Below are positions 20,005-43,077 of a stretch of 64,000 nt of DNA, piece after piece. How positions within the stretch are numbered: position 1 is the first letter of the stretch; every line of letters begins with the position of its first letter. Both the position numbers and the translations under genes were made by a program. The notes below the pieces were generated by a model. That model saw only the letters and a list, made by a program, of their open reading frames with translations. It was not told where the DNA came from and ran no database searches. This DNA comes from Ectobacillus antri (GTDB taxonomy: Bacteria; Bacillota; Bacilli; Bacillales; Bacillaceae_G): assembly GCF_003852715.1 (NCBI RefSeq), contig NZ_RIAV01000018.1:1-64000 (forward strand), given 5' to 3'.

Positions 20005-20489
20005 TAAAGGAGGTATTTCTTTGCTTGTAATCTAATTGTAAAGCCTGTTTAAAGCACAGGAGATATTTGGGGGTGATTTTGAAACGTTTTTGTGATATTG
20101 ATTTCGCATTGATAAAACTATCAACGAAATATAATACAAGCCTGCTTAGTAACAAAACTTACTTCCCAACCTTTTACTAGCTCCCGGCCACGATAGCTGG
20201 CTAAGTGGTGAGTAGTTCATTTATACTATAACGTCATTGACCTCGCCTATTCATGTTAAAAACTTGAGGTGGGGCCTTTTTATGAAAAGCATAAATACAT
20301 CTATTTACTGTATTTTCTGAATAATGTATCATTAATATTGAAGTGGGATACTTACAATTTGCAAATCCGCACTTAGACAATATTAGGTTAGGGGGCGTAT
20401 ATAATTAGCACATACGATATGTATGAAGCAGAATGTGGTTTTGTTATTAACGTATCATATATTATGAAATGAGAAAGGTAGAGAATGCA
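20005..20489. other. Intergenic region ahead of the repeat protein gene
   Basis: This gap contains the divergent promoters of the M23 peptidase (-) and the repeat protein (+). A GACCTCGCC/GAGGTGGGG pair with TTTTT near 20238-20281 may be a weak terminator. No gene is visible. Confidence 0.45.
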
Positions 20490-22580
20490 ATGAAGATACA
20501 TACGAAAGGCTTGCGTTACATATTCATCGTCACTTTACTTGTGCTACTACAGTTTAGTAATATATCTGCTGCATTTGCCGCTTCAACTGTCACACCAGCC
20601 AAAGGTTTGGAAGAAATAATTAAGCAAAAAGCACTAGAGCGCCAAAACCTTAAAAAGCAACCTTTTCAGCAAAAAGATAAACAAGGTGTAAATAGATTTA
20701 TGAAACCATCTGCTTTTGTTGCAACTGAAAAAAGTGCAAAACAACCTGAAAGCAGAAGACAGGTAAACATCACAGGATCTATTCAAAAGGATAAAACAAC
20801 AGTAAAAGCAGGCAGTGTAGTAATATATAGTCTTAATGGAGAAGGATATGGTGAATATACTACAGCCATTACGAATGGTGTATTTAGTCTGTATTTACCA
20901 GACGGTGAGTATGTGCTAGAAACATATTATGATGAAGCGACTCATGAAACTGTCACAACTTCCTACCATTTTACGGTTGTAAATGGAAAATCTGTTCCTG
21001 AAAAGCTATCCATTGTTGTGCCTACAGATAACGTGAAAGGGTTTATTCAACAGGCCAAAAACGTTATTTCAAGGGGAACGGTGTATATTACAAGTCTGGA
21101 TGTAGAGGCACCAAAAGCATATGAAGCACGTATTCTAAAAGGGCAATTTAAGCTATATTTGCCAAAAGGGCAGTACAAAGTGGAAGGTTATTATGATGAT
21201 ACGAAGAGACAGTTTGTTACGCTTTCTCAAGAGTTCTCAATAAAGAACAATAAAAGTACGCCTCTTGCTATTTACGTTCCGGCAGACAATGTAAAGGGAA
21301 CCGTACAAAAAGGAAAACAAAAGGTGAATGAGGGAGAAATTCAATTCCGAACAAAAGATGATTCTGCTTGGTACAGCGCTCGTATTCAAAAGGGTACATT
21401 TAGCTTATATATGCCGGATGGTGAATATGAAACAGACGGATACTTTGATGAAGAGAAGCAAAAGTATGTAAATCATGCTTATTCTTTTATAGTTAAAAAC
21501 GGAAAAACCAAACCAGCACAGCTTAAAATACAGGTACCTGAGGATAATGTAAAAGGGCAACTAACAAAGGCAGGACAGCCTCTTCAGAGAGGTTTTACAG
21601 AGTTTAAAAATATAGATTCGGAACGTTTCTTTGAAGTAGAGATTCAAAATGGTCAATTTAGCTTGTATATGCCTGATGGCCAATATGAAATGACGGGATA
21701 TTATAATGTAGAAACAGGTTTGTATGTGCCGTTTACATACAAGTTTGCTGTGGTGAATGGAAAAGCGTCACCAGCTTTTCTTAACATTGATATACCAGCT
21801 GATAATGTAACAGGTATTGTTTCCAAAAACGGCAAGGTAATACAAAACGGACTTGTGGCAATTCAGGATTCAGAACAACTCTACTCCTATGAAGCAAACA
21901 TCCAAAATGGTCAATTCAGCTTATATCTACCAGATGGAGAATATGAGATCACGGGTTATTATGATGTCGACAGAGATGTATTTACAGCATTTTATCAGAG
22001 CTTTATCGTAAAGAACGGTAAAGCCGAAGCAATCACTGTGAATGTGCCTGCTGATAATGTAACAGGGACGGTACAAAAAGCGGGGCAGCCTGTGCAAAGA
22101 GGTGTGCTCATTCTACATGCCGACGAGTCCGGTACAGAAAAATGGTATCGTACAGAAATTAAGGATGGACAAATAAGCTTGTATTTGCCTGACGGTACGT
22201 ACACAACAGAAGGCTATTATGATATGGAAAAAGGGGATGTTATAGCATTTCGTTATACTTTTACAGTGAAACATGGAACGGTAGAGCCGCTTCGTATTGA
22301 AGTACCAGCAGATAATGTAAAGGGAATTGTAAAGAAAGAAAACGGTACTGCATGGGGCATGCTGCAATTGCAAGCGGTTGGTGATGAGGAAGAGCTTTAC
22401 TATGTAAGTGTGAATGAAGGAAGCTTCAGCTTATATTTACCGGATGGCACCTATCAAGCAGTAACATACTTGGATATGGACCTACTTGAAGAAATACCTG
22501 TGAACTATACGTTTACAGTGTCAGGTGGTAAAACAACGCCAGCAGAATTGGAAATTACGATTCCTGGAAATAAAAACTAG
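20490..22580 (+). CDS. Secreted protein with seven ~85-residue beta-sandwich-like repeats
   Basis: About 696 residues from the ATG at 20490, where a GAAAGGTAGAG site fits; an ATG at 20469 has none. A signal peptide (IFIVTLLVLLQFSN, cleavage near AFA) is followed by a Gln/Lys-rich linker. Seven tandem units then share VxADNVKGxVQKxG at the start, GxFSLYLPDGEYxxxGYYD in the middle and FxVxNGKxxP at the end. They resemble carboxypeptidase-regulatory-like beta domains. No LPXTG or transmembrane end is seen, so attachment, if any, is non-covalent. The role may be adhesion or matrix formation; not recognised. Confidence 0.72.
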   Translation: MKIHTKGLRYIFIVTLLVLLQFSNISAAFAASTVTPAKGLEEIIKQKALERQNLKKQPFQQKDKQGVNRFMKPSAFVATEKSAKQPESRRQVNITGSIQKDKTTVKAGSVVIYSLNGEGYGEYTTAITNGVFSLYLPDGEYVLETYYDEATHETVTTSYHFTVVNGKSVPEKLSIVVPTDNVKGFIQQAKNVISRGTVYITSLDVEAPKAYEARILKGQFKLYLPKGQYKVEGYYDDTKRQFVTLSQEFSIKNNKSTPLAIYVPADNVKGTVQKGKQKVNEGEIQFRTKDDSAWYSARIQKGTFSLYMPDGEYETDGYFDEEKQKYVNHAYSFIVKNGKTKPAQLKIQVPEDNVKGQLTKAGQPLQRGFTEFKNIDSERFFEVEIQNGQFSLYMPDGQYEMTGYYNVETGLYVPFTYKFAVVNGKASPAFLNIDIPADNVTGIVSKNGKVIQNGLVAIQDSEQLYSYEANIQNGQFSLYLPDGEYEITGYYDVDRDVFTAFYQSFIVKNGKAEAITVNVPADNVTGTVQKAGQPVQRGVLILHADESGTEKWYRTEIKDGQISLYLPDGTYTTEGYYDMEKGDVIAFRYTFTVKHGTVEPLRIEVPADNVKGIVKKENGTAWGMLQLQAVGDEEELYYVSVNEGSFSLYLPDGTYQAVTYLDMDLLEEIPVNYTFTVSGGKTTPAELEITIPGNKN

Positions 22581-22863: not shown

Positions 22864-23388
22864 ATGAAGCTTACTTTTATATCGAGTCATGACGTAAAAA
22901 AAAGGGCTATTACAGCTTTACATGAACGAGGTGTACATACAGAAGACATTGCAAAATTAACATATTTTTTACAAGAGAAATATATACCGGGTTTAACCAT
23001 AGAAGAATGTGTGGAGAACGTGGAAAGTGTACTAAAAAAAAGAGAAGTGCAGAACGCTTTGTTAACGGGAATTGAGCTAGATATACTGGCAGAAAAGGGA
23101 GCATTATCTTTTCCTCTTCAGCAAATGGTAAAAGAAGATGAAAGCTTGTATGGTGTGGACGAAACATTAGCATTATCGATTTTAAATTTATATGGAAGTA
23201 TTAGCTTCACGAATTATGGCTACATTGATAAGTTGAAAGAAGGTATTTTACAAATGCTGAATGATAAATCTACAGGGAGCGTACATGCTTTTTTAGATGA
23301 TTTGGTTGGTGCGATTGCGGCAGCAGCTGCAAGCCGATTGGCACATCGGTACCGCGCAAAGCTGGAGAGGGAGCATAATTCTGAATAA
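22864..23388 (+). CDS. PgpA-family phosphatidylglycerophosphatase-like protein (YutG-like)
   Basis: A 174-residue protein matching the PgpA family (LHERGVHTEDIAKLTYFLQE near the start, then GILQMLNDKSTGSVHAFLDD and a Ala-rich end). In Bacillus the relative YutG is thought to dephosphorylate phosphatidylglycerophosphate. It lacks the membrane helices of E. coli PgpA, as usual for this branch. AGGAGGAA lies 14 bp before the ATG, a little far. It stands alone, with no phospholipid gene next to it. Confidence 0.78.
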   Translation: MKLTFISSHDVKKRAITALHERGVHTEDIAKLTYFLQEKYIPGLTIEECVENVESVLKKREVQNALLTGIELDILAEKGALSFPLQQMVKEDESLYGVDETLALSILNLYGSISFTNYGYIDKLKEGILQMLNDKSTGSVHAFLDDLVGAIAAAAASRLAHRYRAKLEREHNSE

Positions 23389-23593
23389 AAAACTACGATT
23401 AGTAGGAGTCATTTTATGTGATTACAGGTTAATACAGTCGTGTGTATCATAGTTCTGTTACCGGTTTGATAACAGAGATTTTAACTTCTATATTTTTATA
23501 AAAAGGGGTGGCAATTGTATAAAAGTACTAGACTCTTCTCACTTAATAAGTATATAATTACTTTTAACTTGTATCGTGACGAATTGTAATTCG

Positions 23594-23622
23594 TTGACTT
23601 TTCGTATATATTTACTTAGAAT
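23594..23622 (+). promoter_or_regulatory. Sigma-A promoter of the SAM riboswitch
   Basis: TTGACT (23594-23599), 17 bp, TAGAAT (23617-23622). Transcription would begin about 10 bp before the aptamer. Confidence 0.75.
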
Positions 23623-23639
23623 TTTAATAGACGTAATTT

Positions 23640-23815
23640 CTTATCTAGAGAGGTGGAGGGACTGGCCCTTTGAAGCCTCGGCAACGGATTCCTTTAGAAT
23701 ACCGTGCCAATTCCAGCAAGCTGTGGGCTTGAAAGATGAGGAAGGACGAAGATGCTTTTGTGATGTAAAAGTATGTTCAGCCCCTTTCTTTGTTTAGGAA
23801 AGGGGCTTTTTCTTG
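23640..23815 (+). promoter_or_regulatory. SAM-I (S-box) riboswitch with terminator
   Basis: The conserved S-box order is clear: CTTATC...AGAG-GGTGGAGGGA, CTGGCCC-TGAAGCC-CGGCAAC, GTGCCAATTCC, GCAAG and AAAGATGAGG. The expression platform ends in AGCCCCTTTC / GAAAGGGGCT with a T-run (23779-23812). SAM binding causes termination before the next gene. A frame of 73 codons that spans this RNA is not a gene. Confidence 0.95.
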
Positions 23816-23850
23816 TATAAAATCAAAAGCTCTACATAAAGGAGGATGAA

Positions 23851-24429
23851 ATGAAACAAATACAGCAGCAAGCACCACCTGCATACTTACAGATTATAAA
23901 AGAATCAAAGAAGATAGGTTTCAATCAGTTTTGTGACTATAAAACAGGCTTTTTCTTAAAAGGATTGGCCGCAGCGAAACAAAATGGCAGATTTTTAGAA
24001 CTTGGCACAGGAACAGGAGCATCCGCTTCTTGGATCTTAGAAGGTATGGACGAAACCAGCACATTGATAACTGTTGATATTGATCCTACTGTTCACGCCG
24101 TAGCCAAAAAAATGCTGGGGCATGATACACGTATCACATTTCGTTGTGAAGAGGGAAGTGCATTTATTCAAACGATGACTGAAACGTTTGACTTTATCTT
24201 TGCGGATACATGGCCAGGAAAATTTGACTTGCTAGATAAAACATTGGATCAGCTGAATGTTGGTGGATTTTATGTCATTCATGATGTATTACCGCATGAA
24301 AAATTGCCGGAGGAGTACCGTATTAAAGCGCCAACGTTAGTGCAAGCATTGCGAAATAGAAAAGATATGATTATAACGGAGATGGACTGGTCTACAGGCG
24401 TATTACTAGCAATTAAAACAGCAGAATAA
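23851..24429 (+). CDS. SAM-dependent O-methyltransferase-type protein, riboswitch-controlled
   Basis: A 192-residue class I methyltransferase of the O-methyltransferase/YrrM type. It has FLELGTGTGASASWILE (SAM site), VDIDPTVHAVAKKML (acidic loop II), FDFIFADTWPGKFDLLDK and a C-terminal GVLLAIK. AAAGGAGGATG precedes the start. It lies 35 bp after the S-box terminator and is its only target gene before a gap. The substrate is unknown. A SAM-repressed methyltransferase is unusual, because most S-box genes make methionine or SAM. Confidence 0.85.
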   Translation: MKQIQQQAPPAYLQIIKESKKIGFNQFCDYKTGFFLKGLAAAKQNGRFLELGTGTGASASWILEGMDETSTLITVDIDPTVHAVAKKMLGHDTRITFRCEEGSAFIQTMTETFDFIFADTWPGKFDLLDKTLDQLNVGGFYVIHDVLPHEKLPEEYRIKAPTLVQALRNRKDMIITEMDWSTGVLLAIKTAE

Positions 24430-24529
24430 ATATAAGAGGAAATCCTAAAGATATACAGGATTGTATGCATATTGCGCCTTAGAAAAGTGGTAGTGCAAGT
24501 AAACAGTGAACATTGTGAGGAATCGTATG

Positions 24530-25240
24530 ATGAAAAAATCGCTGAAAATAATTCTATTATCTTTCATAGCGCTATTGGTACTGATAACCGCAGGCTTTTT
24601 GATTTGGGCGCAAGTTGCTTATAAGCCCACAAAAGAGGCTCTTTCTCTTGTAGGAAAAAAAGAAGACAGGGCTATGGTATTTGGCAATCCAAATGCTGAA
24701 ACAGGTATTATCTTTTACCAAGGTGCAAAAGTAGAAGCGGAGGCATACAGCTATATTGGATACGAGCTACAAAAGAAAGGCTACTTCACTGTTATACCGC
24801 AGTTGCCGTTGCGTTTTGCCATTTTTGATGTCAATAAGGCAGATGAAATCATCAAGAGCTACCCACAGGTAAGAAGGTGGTATATAGCGGGTCATTCTTT
24901 AGGGGGAGCGATGGGTGCCAGGTACGCTTATGAAAATAAAGATAAAGTCGCTGGGATCATGTTTCTTGCCGCTTATCCAGCAGATGACCTTTCCAACACG
25001 TCTATTCCAATTCTGTCCGTTTATGGTGAAAGAGATGGAGTGGCTACGCTGTCACAAATGAAAGAGAAAGAACAGCTTCTTTCCAAAAACACTACTCTAC
25101 ATATGATTAAGGGTGGAAATCATGCTCACTTTGGCATGTATGGTGAGCAAAAGGGCGATAATAAAAGTACGATTACAGCAAAGCAGCAACAAAAGGAAAC
25201 CATTGAAGTTATGACAGAATGGTTAAATAGGCAACGCTAA
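24530..25240 (+). CDS. Membrane-anchored alpha/beta hydrolase
   Basis: About 236 residues. The ATG at 24530 is best spaced from TGAGGA (8 bp). One N-terminal membrane helix (IILLSFIALLVLITAGFLIW) precedes a hydrolase fold with the nucleophile elbow GHSLGGAMGARYAY, then VYGERDGVATLS (Asp region) and GGNHAHFGMYG (His). The catalytic Ser-Asp-His set is thus present. It is of the dienelactone hydrolase/PF12695 type; the substrate is unknown. A terminator hairpin overlaps its end. Confidence 0.75.
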   Translation: MKKSLKIILLSFIALLVLITAGFLIWAQVAYKPTKEALSLVGKKEDRAMVFGNPNAETGIIFYQGAKVEAEAYSYIGYELQKKGYFTVIPQLPLRFAIFDVNKADEIIKSYPQVRRWYIAGHSLGGAMGARYAYENKDKVAGIMFLAAYPADDLSNTSIPILSVYGERDGVATLSQMKEKEQLLSKNTTLHMIKGGNHAHFGMYGEQKGDNKSTITAKQQQKETIEVMTEWLNRQR

Positions 25241-25268
25241 GGAGATAACGTATGAGCGTTGTCTTTTT
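25232..25268 (+). terminator. Terminator of the hydrolase gene
   Basis: CAACGCT (overlapping the stop) pairs with AGCGTTG, followed by TCTTTTTAT. Confidence 0.7.
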
Positions 25269-25425
25269 ATATGGACTCACAATATGGTGCATGTCTAAAA
25301 AGAAGGTCATTTTTAATACTTTTTTTTAATGCGTTAATTGCTGCGACACCTGTTGTTGGAAGGGACAAAAATGAGAGACCCGCACTGTATGATTTGCTAC
25401 AAAAACATACTATTTCTTTAAAGTG

Positions 25426-25453
25426 AAAAAGCTCCTGCGCACAGGAGCTTTTC
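25426..25453 (-). terminator. Terminator of the yfcC-iadA-aspA operon
   Basis: AAAGCTCCTG and CAGGAGCTTT pair with a CGCA loop; the A-run reads as a T-run on the minus strand, directly after the aspA stop. Confidence 0.85.
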
Positions 25454-25454
25454 C

Positions 25455-26879
25455 TTAGGATGATAACTGCCCAATCACAGATGTAGAAGGGTGTGTCATC
25501 GCATAAGGATTTAAAATAGCATCTAACGTACTCTCATCAAGAACATTGTAAAGCAAGCATAGTTCACGGACCGATTTTCCCGTTGAAACAGCTTCTTGTG
25601 CAATGCGTGAAGCTGTTTCGTATCCGATATGGGGACTAATTGCTGTAATGATGCCAACACTGTTGTCTACATATTCCTTCAGCATGTTTTCGTTAGCGAC
25701 AATACCTTCTATACAATATTTTCGGAAGACCTCAAAGGCATTATTCATGATACTCATAGACTGTAGAAGATTGAAAACGAGAACGGGCTCCATTACATTC
25801 AGCTCCAGCTGACCAGCCTCAGATGCCAAACAAATGGTATGGTCATTACCGATTACCTGGAACGCAACTTGATTGATTAATTCCGCCATAACAGGATTCA
25901 CTTTACCAGGCATAATAGAAGAACCAGGTTGTCGCGGCGGAAGCTGAATTTCTGCTAGGCCTACGCGTGGTCCTGAGGCCATAAGGCGTAAATCATTGGC
26001 AATTTTAGACATATTCATCATGCATACTTTAAGAGCAGCGGAAACCTCTGTATAAGCATCTGTATTTTGCGTGGCATCCACGAGATGCTCGGCACTTGTT
26101 AGAGGAAAGCCGCTAATAACAGATAAATATCGTACAACAGCTTCAATATAGCGAACATCGGCATTTAGTCCTGTACCAACTGCGGTAGCACCGATATTGA
26201 CTTCATATAAGTGCTGACATGAGATATTCACACGTTTAATATCTCGTTGTAACACACGGCTGTAAGCTTCAAATTCTTGTCCAAGACGAATAGGTACTGC
26301 GTCTTGCAGGTGCGTACGTCCCATTTTAATAATATGATCAAACTCAGCCCCTTTTTTAGCAAAAGCTTCTTGTAGCTGATTCATAGTTTGCAATAATGTT
26401 TCCGCCATCTGTAGTACTGCGATGTGAATGCCAGTTGGAAATACATCGTTGGTGGACTGTGACATGTTGACATGGGTATTGGGGCTTATATAAGCGTAAT
26501 CTCCTTTATCTCTTCCTAGCATTTCAAGTGCACGATTGGCAATCACCTCATTCATGTTCATGTTGAGAGAAGTTCCTGCCCCGCCTTGAATGGGATCCAC
26601 GATAAACTGCTCTAGAAACTGTCCGTCAATAATCTCTTCGGCTGCTTTGACAATGGCTCTTCCTATTTCGGCTGGCAATCGCTTGGATTCCATATTGGCC
26701 AAGGCGCATGCTTTCTTGACCATAGCAATCGCTGTAATTAAAGATGGGTGAATACGATAGCCCGTGATAGGAAAGTTTTCTAAAGCACGCAATGTTTGCA
26801 CGCCGTAATAAGCCTCTTTCGGAACATGCTTTTCTCCCAAGAAATCTCGCTCGATGCGTGTAGCATTCACAATTTTCAC
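25455..26879 (-). CDS. aspA: Aspartate ammonia-lyase (aspartase)
   Basis: A 474-residue member of the fumarase/aspartase superfamily with its signature GSSIMPGKVNP. TSTNDVFPTGIHI-type and GRTHLQDAVPI motifs are the other two conserved segments (QSTNDVFPTG and KMGRTHLQDA). It converts aspartate to fumarate and ammonia. It is the last gene of the operon yfcC-iadA-aspA. Here it would consume Asp set free by the isoaspartyl dipeptidase and feed fumarate to the TCA cycle. Confidence 0.93.
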   Translation of the reverse strand: MKIVNATRIERDFLGEKHVPKEAYYGVQTLRALENFPITGYRIHPSLITAIAMVKKACALANMESKRLPAEIGRAIVKAAEEIIDGQFLEQFIVDPIQGGAGTSLNMNMNEVIANRALEMLGRDKGDYAYISPNTHVNMSQSTNDVFPTGIHIAVLQMAETLLQTMNQLQEAFAKKGAEFDHIIKMGRTHLQDAVPIRLGQEFEAYSRVLQRDIKRVNISCQHLYEVNIGATAVGTGLNADVRYIEAVVRYLSVISGFPLTSAEHLVDATQNTDAYTEVSAALKVCMMNMSKIANDLRLMASGPRVGLAEIQLPPRQPGSSIMPGKVNPVMAELINQVAFQVIGNDHTICLASEAGQLELNVMEPVLVFNLLQSMSIMNNAFEVFRKYCIEGIVANENMLKEYVDNSVGIITAISPHIGYETASRIAQEAVSTGKSVRELCLLYNVLDESTLDAILNPYAMTHPSTSVIGQLSS

Positions 26880-41029: not shown

Positions 41030-42835
<1,806 letters not shown>

Positions 42836-42852
42836 CTACTTTCATAAGCATG

Positions 42853-43014
42853 AAAAAAGCCAGGCTCTGCAGAACCTGGCTGAATGTTAGGAAATAAGCA
42901 TAATACAAATTATGCGCGCTAACTTCCCCACGCTGGTATGAACCAGATCAGGTCCTGAGGGTTAAGAAACTTCACTGTGTTTCTCTCTCAGCCCAACTCG
43001 TTGGACACCCCTAG
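42853..43014 (-). promoter_or_regulatory. TPP (Thi-box) riboswitch with terminator, upstream of thiC
   Basis: On the minus strand it reads GGGGTGTCC, then GGCTGAGAGAGA, AACCCTCAGGACCTGATCTG with GTTCATACCAGCG and TGGGGAAGTTA, the full TPP aptamer order. After it, AGCCAGGTTCTGCAGAGCCT with GGCT and a T-run (42853-42884) is the terminator. TPP binding switches thiC off. Confidence 0.96.
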
Positions 43015-43077
43015 TCATTAAAAATTTTCAATTTTACAAAATAAATATATGGTATTTGCATAAATTTGTAAAGGGTT

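Follow-up and report, generated by a model that had tools for sequence, protein, structure and literature searches.

Why would an S-box (SAM-I) riboswitch precede a gene whose product resembles a consumer of SAM? S-boxes are guides to gene function: to our knowledge, almost all the genes they control serve to make, import or salvage methionine or SAM. When a conserved target of such a switch resembles a SAM consumer, it points either to a missing methionine or sulfur step or to a reason to spend scarce SAM. We analyzed such a case in Ectobacillus antri, in a stretch of 64,000 nt (the window), and compared it with related genomes. Our best explanation, to which we give a probability of about 0.5, is that an S-box captured a methyltransferase that would be made only at low SAM and would methylate a small chelating acid. 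The pairing is clean, being present at all close orthologues examined and at none of the 69 more distant homologues; with a small enzyme and a confident structural model, the question is directly addressable at the bench.

Leader and transcript

The features of the locus are listed in Table 1. The aptamer matches RF00162 over the full length of the model (1-108 of 108) with 96 bits (gathering score 44.4; E = 7.2e-22), and a whole-genome Rfam search returned the same aptamer at E = 9.1e-24. A chance or misread S-box is ruled out by this full-length match and by the 16 S-boxes of the genome. The antiterminator helix (8 pairs in the window leader) joins the 3' end of the aptamer to the 5' arm of the terminator and overlaps the terminator hairpin, making the two mutually exclusive. 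The original prediction of a complete S-box with a terminator is thus confirmed, and an antiterminator is added to it. The arrangement is the usual one for an S-box, and its anatomy supports an OFF switch that would respond to SAM.

Table 1. Features of the S-box/methyltransferase locus, in window coordinates
Feature	Position	Strand	Basis
Sigma-A type promoter, TTGACT-17 nt-TAGAAT	23594..23622	+	Consensus scan, 10/12 matches
S-box (SAM-I) riboswitch aptamer	23638..23742	+	RF00162 match
Antiterminator 5' strand (aptamer 3' end)	23738..23745	+	Pairs with 23783-23790, 8 bp, G-T allowed
Intrinsic terminator hairpin with T-tract	23779..23807	+	12 pairs, 6 G-C, -19.1 kcal/mol
Shine-Dalgarno AGGAGG	23840..23845	+	Sequence
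Class I methyltransferase, cation-dependent O-methyltransferase fold, 192 aa	23851..24429	+	Pfam, model, structural matches
Predicted metal site: D119; H144; D145	24205-24207; 24280-24282; 24283-24285	+	Profile alignment to TrmR
Alpha/beta hydrolase (Abhydrolase_5), possibly co-transcribed	24506..25240	+	Start GTG 24506 or ATG 24527

We compared 37 leaders. Of these, 36 belong to methyltransferase genes, with overlap between named and unnamed copies, and the last is that of the distal Ectobacillus panaciterrae S-box described below. A terminator is present in each of the 37, and in 36 an antiterminator of 7 or more pairs extends into the aptamer; only the leader of the distal S-box departs from this. 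The count allowed G-T pairs and a single mismatch and was made on real leaders only. The distance from the aptamer end to the start codon varies from 93 to 411 nt among 15 orthologues of 66-74% identity.

The promoter of the original prediction gains from comparison. The scan is weak alone, with 7 promoter-like sites in 23380-24560 against 3.8 +/- 2.0 in shuffled sequences, but both hexamers and their spacing are identical in the leader of L018, another locus carrying the gene. TTGACT-17-TATAAT precedes the distal S-box of E. panaciterrae.

The methyltransferase had also been described as the only gene behind the S-box, which we could not establish. A hydrolase gene on the same strand starts 76 nt (GTG) or 97 nt (ATG) after the methyltransferase stop, and the product of 24521-25240 matches PF12695 with 224.7 bits. 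A simple consensus scan of 24380-25460 found no terminator-like site between the two genes, so a two-gene transcript is possible. The same gene order is seen in L018.

Conservation of the pairing

The original prediction proposed looking for the same pair in related genomes, and the pair recurs there. Three of the four genomes of the Ectobacillus panel have the gene, each with an S-box upstream. A close match is found in the same 3 of 19 genomes of the family panel, where six others have only weak ones (about 26-29% identity), and a sample of the order gave a match at E up to 1e-20 in 2 of 199. An alignment-based scan of named genomes confirmed at least 516 relatives, of which the best 80 were kept. 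Fifteen of these (L031-L045; 66-74% identity) are close orthologues from Ectobacillus, Bacillus, Cytobacillus, Sporosarcina globispora and contigs labelled Paenibacillus sp. FSL R5-0490 and Pseudomonas sp. ISL-84. All 15 have an S-box upstream, by Rfam and again with our own model, as do the window gene and L018. The E. panaciterrae locus (L031) is also the third gene-bearing genome of the Ectobacillus panel. The named set overlaps with the Cytobacillus panel below as well.

In the Cytobacillus panel, the gene is present in 19 of 36 genomes and an S-box lies upstream in 20 of 20 match rows. One genome (G234) has the gene split between two frames and contributes two rows on one S-box; the split may be due to assembly, since metH is also in pieces there. 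Pairing across the orthologues and the Cytobacillus panel rules out a one-genome accident. The neighbouring genes vary between lineages and the S-box stays; in Cytobacillus, the neighbours encode a bPH_3-domain protein, a PdxR-like regulator, a GNAT-type protein and an aminotransferase-like protein. The gene is missing from 17 of the 36 Cytobacillus-panel genomes and from one of the four Ectobacillus genomes, which marks it as accessory, not essential. Judged from sequence conservation, the S-box leader with its terminator and antiterminator and this one methyltransferase subfamily form a conserved two-part cassette.

The more distant homologues (about 42-51% identity) number 69: the 65 other loci of the best 80 of 516 and four plasmid loci. 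Our own model found an S-box (E < 0.5) at none of the 69, 16 of which were also searched with Rfam; for one of them, L094, the search covered about 250 bases of upstream DNA. A further own-model match at L078 (16.5 bits, E = 0.55) was taken as chance. One assembly contributes two of the loci, L084 and L088, on separate contigs. S-boxes are common in Bacillota, and five homologues from this phylum (L027, L046, L047, L048 and L076) are also without one, which weakens the view that the absence is a mere phylum effect.

E. panaciterrae has two S-boxes upstream of the methyltransferase gene (L031:2800-2906 and L031:3551-3658), about 640 nt apart; the small ORF between them has no Pfam match. An ORF of about 100 codons that lies between S-box and methyltransferase in E. 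panaciterrae and L041 overlaps the methyltransferase start and was taken as spurious. The distal S-box is 86% identical to the window aptamer. The proximal one shares 92-94% identity with the S-boxes of Cytobacillus and relatives, and 88% with that of a racemase gene in the window genome. Outside L018, the window aptamer is closest to the S-box of an SfnG-like gene in its own genome (89%). These identities across genes and genomes suggest that SAM control was kept though the RNA seems to have changed. A simple account would be exchange of the RNA, or loss of one of two copies, under continued SAM control; exchange between S-boxes is plausible.

The methyltransferase

The gene product matches PF13578 (Methyltransf_24) with 43.5 bits, above the Pfam cut-off, and PF01596 (Methyltransf_3) with 35.3 bits (gathering score 22). 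None of the six NCBIfam families listed for it, and hence no model of a known methionine-cycle enzyme, reached its cut-off; the best score was 24.3 bits against 304, for a polyamine aminopropyltransferase model. The AlphaFold model is of high confidence (pLDDT 91.9, pTM 0.89). Its VIA-align matches have Z scores of 21.6-25.2 among the 50 rows listed, the nearest solved folds being cation-dependent O-methyltransferases; Z is 25.2 to 3tr6 (rmsd 2.5 over 191 residues, 20% identity). The best Foldseek match is 5x7f, and a family profile search placed TrmR (8k1f) first (E = 1.1e-16). The glycine-rich SAM motif, LELGTGTG in the window protein, is intact. The Pfam matches, the fold and this motif uphold the original assignment of an O-methyltransferase-type protein, with activity as a prediction. 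We infer that the S-box-linked enzyme, with its cation-dependent O-methyltransferase fold, would methylate small molecules.

The metal triad of COMT and TrmR is Asp, Asp-Asn. In the TrmR profile alignment, D119 stands against Asp and positions 144-145 stand against Asp-Asn. We take positions 119, 144 and 145 to be the probable metal ligands, from this alignment and from the general features of the fold. The window protein has D119, H144 and D145 there and so departs from the Asp/Asp-Asn triad; we filed it as sharing the Methyltransf_3 fold, not as a canonical member.

The departure is a property of the whole S-box clade. Position 144 is His in 17/17 S-box-clade rows and Asp in 69/69 homologues without an S-box; position 152 is Leu or Val in 17/17 of the former and Trp in 69/69 of the latter. 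Further positions separate the two groups less cleanly. The His/Asp contrast holds for this sample, the best 80 of 516 relatives plus a few others. The Cytobacillus panel has His144 in all 20 rows that cover the position, two partial rows ending short of it. D145 is Asn in L041 and L156. D119, W121 and K124 are invariant and are retained in the S-box-linked proteins.

In a quick tree of 86 sequences, one branch (SH-aLRT 100; 1.14 changes per column) set the S-box group apart from all the others. The L103 sequence, which overran the end of its contig, was trimmed to 195 residues for this tree. A long-branch artefact is countered by a second quick tree made without nine long rows (L028, L029, L030, L049, L053, L085, L103, L107 and L108), in which the 17 S-box rows again fell on one side (SH-aLRT 100); both trees are unrooted and without bootstraps. 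Pairwise dN/dS among 11 sequences was 0.06-0.18 in the 42 of 55 pairs with a value, dS being incalculable for the remaining 13. Low dN/dS together with the residue changes on a long branch suggests an enzyme under selection that changed markedly about the time it acquired the S-box. Asp144 would have become His, and the nearby Trp152 Leu or Val, about when the gene came under S-box control.

The same changes could be read as loss of methyl transfer, with the protein using or sensing a SAM-related nucleotide in another reaction. Replacement of positions 144 and 152 in 17/17 members and the long stem branch would fit this reading. We consider it quite improbable, as the SAM motif, D119, W121 and K124 are all retained under purifying selection.

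Genomic setting of the wider family

The wider family offers a second, independent handle on the substrate chemistry. In the fetched flanks, at least one ilv or leu gene accompanies 25 of the 69 homologues without an S-box, and at least two accompany 22. None was found in the flanks of the S-box clade (0/17). Bacteroidota account for 23 of the 25 by record title. L099, from an Armatimonadetes assembly, has ilvB, ilvN and ilvC nearby, and L052, from a Sulfurospirillum assembly, has only a partial leuB. In L072, from a Mucilaginibacter assembly, a D144-type member (X) lies between ilvN and ilvC in the order ilvD-ilvB-ilvN-X-ilvC-leuC-leuD-leuB. Operon genes were named by NCBIfam on representatives and by BLAST cluster for the other members, keeping only the longest non-overlapping ORFs of at least 80 aa as neighbours; the methyltransferase cluster held 84 of 86 loci, with L028 and L085 outside. 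The position of a metal-bound methyltransferase beside enzymes of dihydroxy acids, keto acids and isopropylmalate suggests a small chelating acid as substrate.

This setting raises the alternative of a starvation signal or a detoxified intermediate as the product, formed at low SAM by methyl-esterification of an amino-acid-pathway intermediate, much as CysG acts on 3-isopropylmalate. Besides the 22 of 69 homologues found among two or more ilv/leu genes, it has a precedent in the class I enzymes CysG and BelI, for which metal-dependent O-methylation of 3-isopropylmalate-type acids is described (PMC11408123). The S-box clade itself has no ilv/leu neighbours and has changed at the metal site and nearby residues, which means that its substrate probably differs. 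We therefore find this alternative doubtful for the S-box-linked enzyme.

S-box genes elsewhere in the genome

The E. antri genome (G000; 3.49 Mb) has 16 S-boxes, all above the cut-off. They precede metI, metE, yitJ, two metN genes, an NhaC-type transporter gene, metK, metY, cysH, mtnK, mtnW, msrA and genes for an amino acid racemase, an SfnG-like flavin monooxygenase, a sugar-type ABC binding protein and the methyltransferase. For genes without a family call, these names are presumed from sequence. The other S-box genes are thus mostly methionine and sulfur genes.

Four of these S-boxes gave observations of separate interest. One (L005, G000:C1:347732-347834, + strand) precedes a gene for an LLM flavin monooxygenase most like SfnG, a dimethylsulfone monooxygenase (280 bits, below the model cut-off of 383). 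Cytobacillus oceanisediminis has a 78% identical protein whose gene likewise follows an S-box (L125), and the occurrence in both genomes suggests SAM-controlled scavenging of sulfones or sulfonates. Another (L001, G000:C5:22938-23042, + strand) precedes the gene for the racemase, of Asp/Glu type; E. panaciterrae has a protein 68% identical to it, also behind an S-box (L115). The S-box before the msrA-like methionine sulfoxide reductase gene, named from its sequence (L011, G000:C1:336534-336630, - strand), is a pairing shared with E. panaciterrae (L127). The fourth (L010, G000:C13:37198-37304, + strand) precedes a gene for a ribose-type periplasmic binding protein (PF13407) and then an ABC ATPase-like ORF, which may together import a methylthio- or ribosyl-sulfur compound.

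Elsewhere in the window, an ordinary TPP riboswitch (42908-43022, - strand) precedes thiC (41030-42799, - strand). The ORF at 20469-22580 (+ strand) encodes a putatively exported protein of 703 aa with repeated segments (...LPDGEYE...KNGK...VPADNVKG...), mostly weak Pfam matches and no NCBIfam match.

Co-occurrence with two methionine-related enzymes was examined in the 36 genomes of the Cytobacillus panel, ignoring kinship. Acireductone dioxygenase is present in 29 of the 36, in 18/19 genomes with the methyltransferase against 11/17 without it, a weak difference. MetH has some match in 35 and a match over the cut-off in 30 (17/19 with the methyltransferase, the other two having it in pieces, against 13/17 without). 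Both lean weakly with the gene, and neither is a clear partner in these genomes.

An ordinary methionine-pathway enzyme would make the S-box routine. The methyltransferase would then carry out a known step of methionine synthesis, methionine salvage or SAM recycling in place of a non-orthologous enzyme. It shares a regulon with genes read as metE, metI, metK, metY, yitJ, mtnK, mtnW, cysH and metN, all S-box-type orthologues found retain the switch, and the salvage enzyme acireductone dioxygenase is somewhat commoner where the gene is present. However, no NCBIfam model reaches its cut-off for the methyltransferase, the main methionine steps are assigned to other genes of the genome that have S-boxes of their own, and neither metH nor acireductone dioxygenase varies inversely with the gene, as expected of a replacement. 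A class I SAM-binding protein is also an improbable supplier of methionine. On balance we regard an ordinary pathway role as unlikely.

The original prediction held that a known methionine-pathway function would make the logic ordinary. Neither NCBIfam nor the open-access literature searched yielded one, and the paradox of SAM shutting off a SAM user therefore stands. Its first half, shut-off at high SAM, agrees with the OFF-switch anatomy; the enzyme has a SAM-binding motif and may consume SAM as a methyltransferase. We found no published pairing of an S-box with a methyltransferase of this kind in the open-access literature searched.

Proposed function

We propose that a methyltransferase captured by an S-box serves cells short of methionine or sulfur. 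By the established S-box mechanism, ample SAM would let the aptamer fold and the terminator form, leaving the methyltransferase gene silent. When methionine or SAM runs short, the antiterminator would form, a full-length mRNA would be transcribed and the enzyme would be made. This regulatory half, with silencing at high SAM and expression at methionine or SAM shortage, is very probable from the leader sequences. It is about an even bet that the protein is active as a methyltransferase and serves cells limited for methionine or sulfur.

The captured protein would be a diverged metal-dependent methyltransferase from a wide family often found in branched-chain amino acid operons of Bacteroidota. 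It would most likely methylate a small metal-chelating carboxylate, keto acid or enediol. The methylated product may matter only in methionine- or sulfur-limited cells, where a little SAM would be spent for an adaptive product. The most specific version, in which this diverged member of the ilv/leu-linked family uses its His-bearing metal site for an undescribed methylation needed by bacilli specifically at low methionine and SAM, is tentative. If true, that version would mean that scarce SAM pays for a starvation metabolite or for a branch of methionine or sulfur metabolism not known before.

Comparison with known systems

CysG and BelI share the class I methyltransferase fold and the divalent metal predicted for the enzyme described here, and act on leucine-type malates; in the part of PMC11408123 consulted, they have a His-His-Asp metal site (122, 123 and 191) and about 229 residues, and no riboswitch is mentioned for them. 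We liken them to our enzyme by description only. SAH riboswitches precede rRNA methyltransferase genes in Comamonadaceae and Moraxellaceae (PMC4239095). Those proteobacterial systems likewise join a SAM-cycle riboswitch to a methyltransferase, but differ in riboswitch class, ligand (SAH) and enzyme families.

The ubiG gene encodes a methyltransferase. In the ubiG-mccBA system of Clostridium acetobutylicum, a gene of that name is tied to an S-box, as the methyltransferase is here; there, the S-box controls antisense RNAs that are repressed by methionine (PMC2940859). The S-box described here belongs instead to the sense leader, and high SAM should switch the enzyme off.

The Methyltransf_3 proteins (TrmR/YrrM, COMT and SafC) have in common with the window protein the fold, the SAM motif and the alignment of D119 and D145 with metal ligands. 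The window protein is somewhat shorter, at 192 aa, than the solved chains (mostly 200-240) and is 13-24% identical to those listed. The S-box clade has His at the second metal position, where its homologues have Asp.

With the S-box (SAM-I, RF00162) class as a whole, the leader shares the aptamer, terminator and antiterminator architecture and the sense orientation, with a predicted OFF logic. The usual targets of that class serve methionine or SAM supply or salvage; here the target is a SAM-binding enzyme of the methyltransferase fold.
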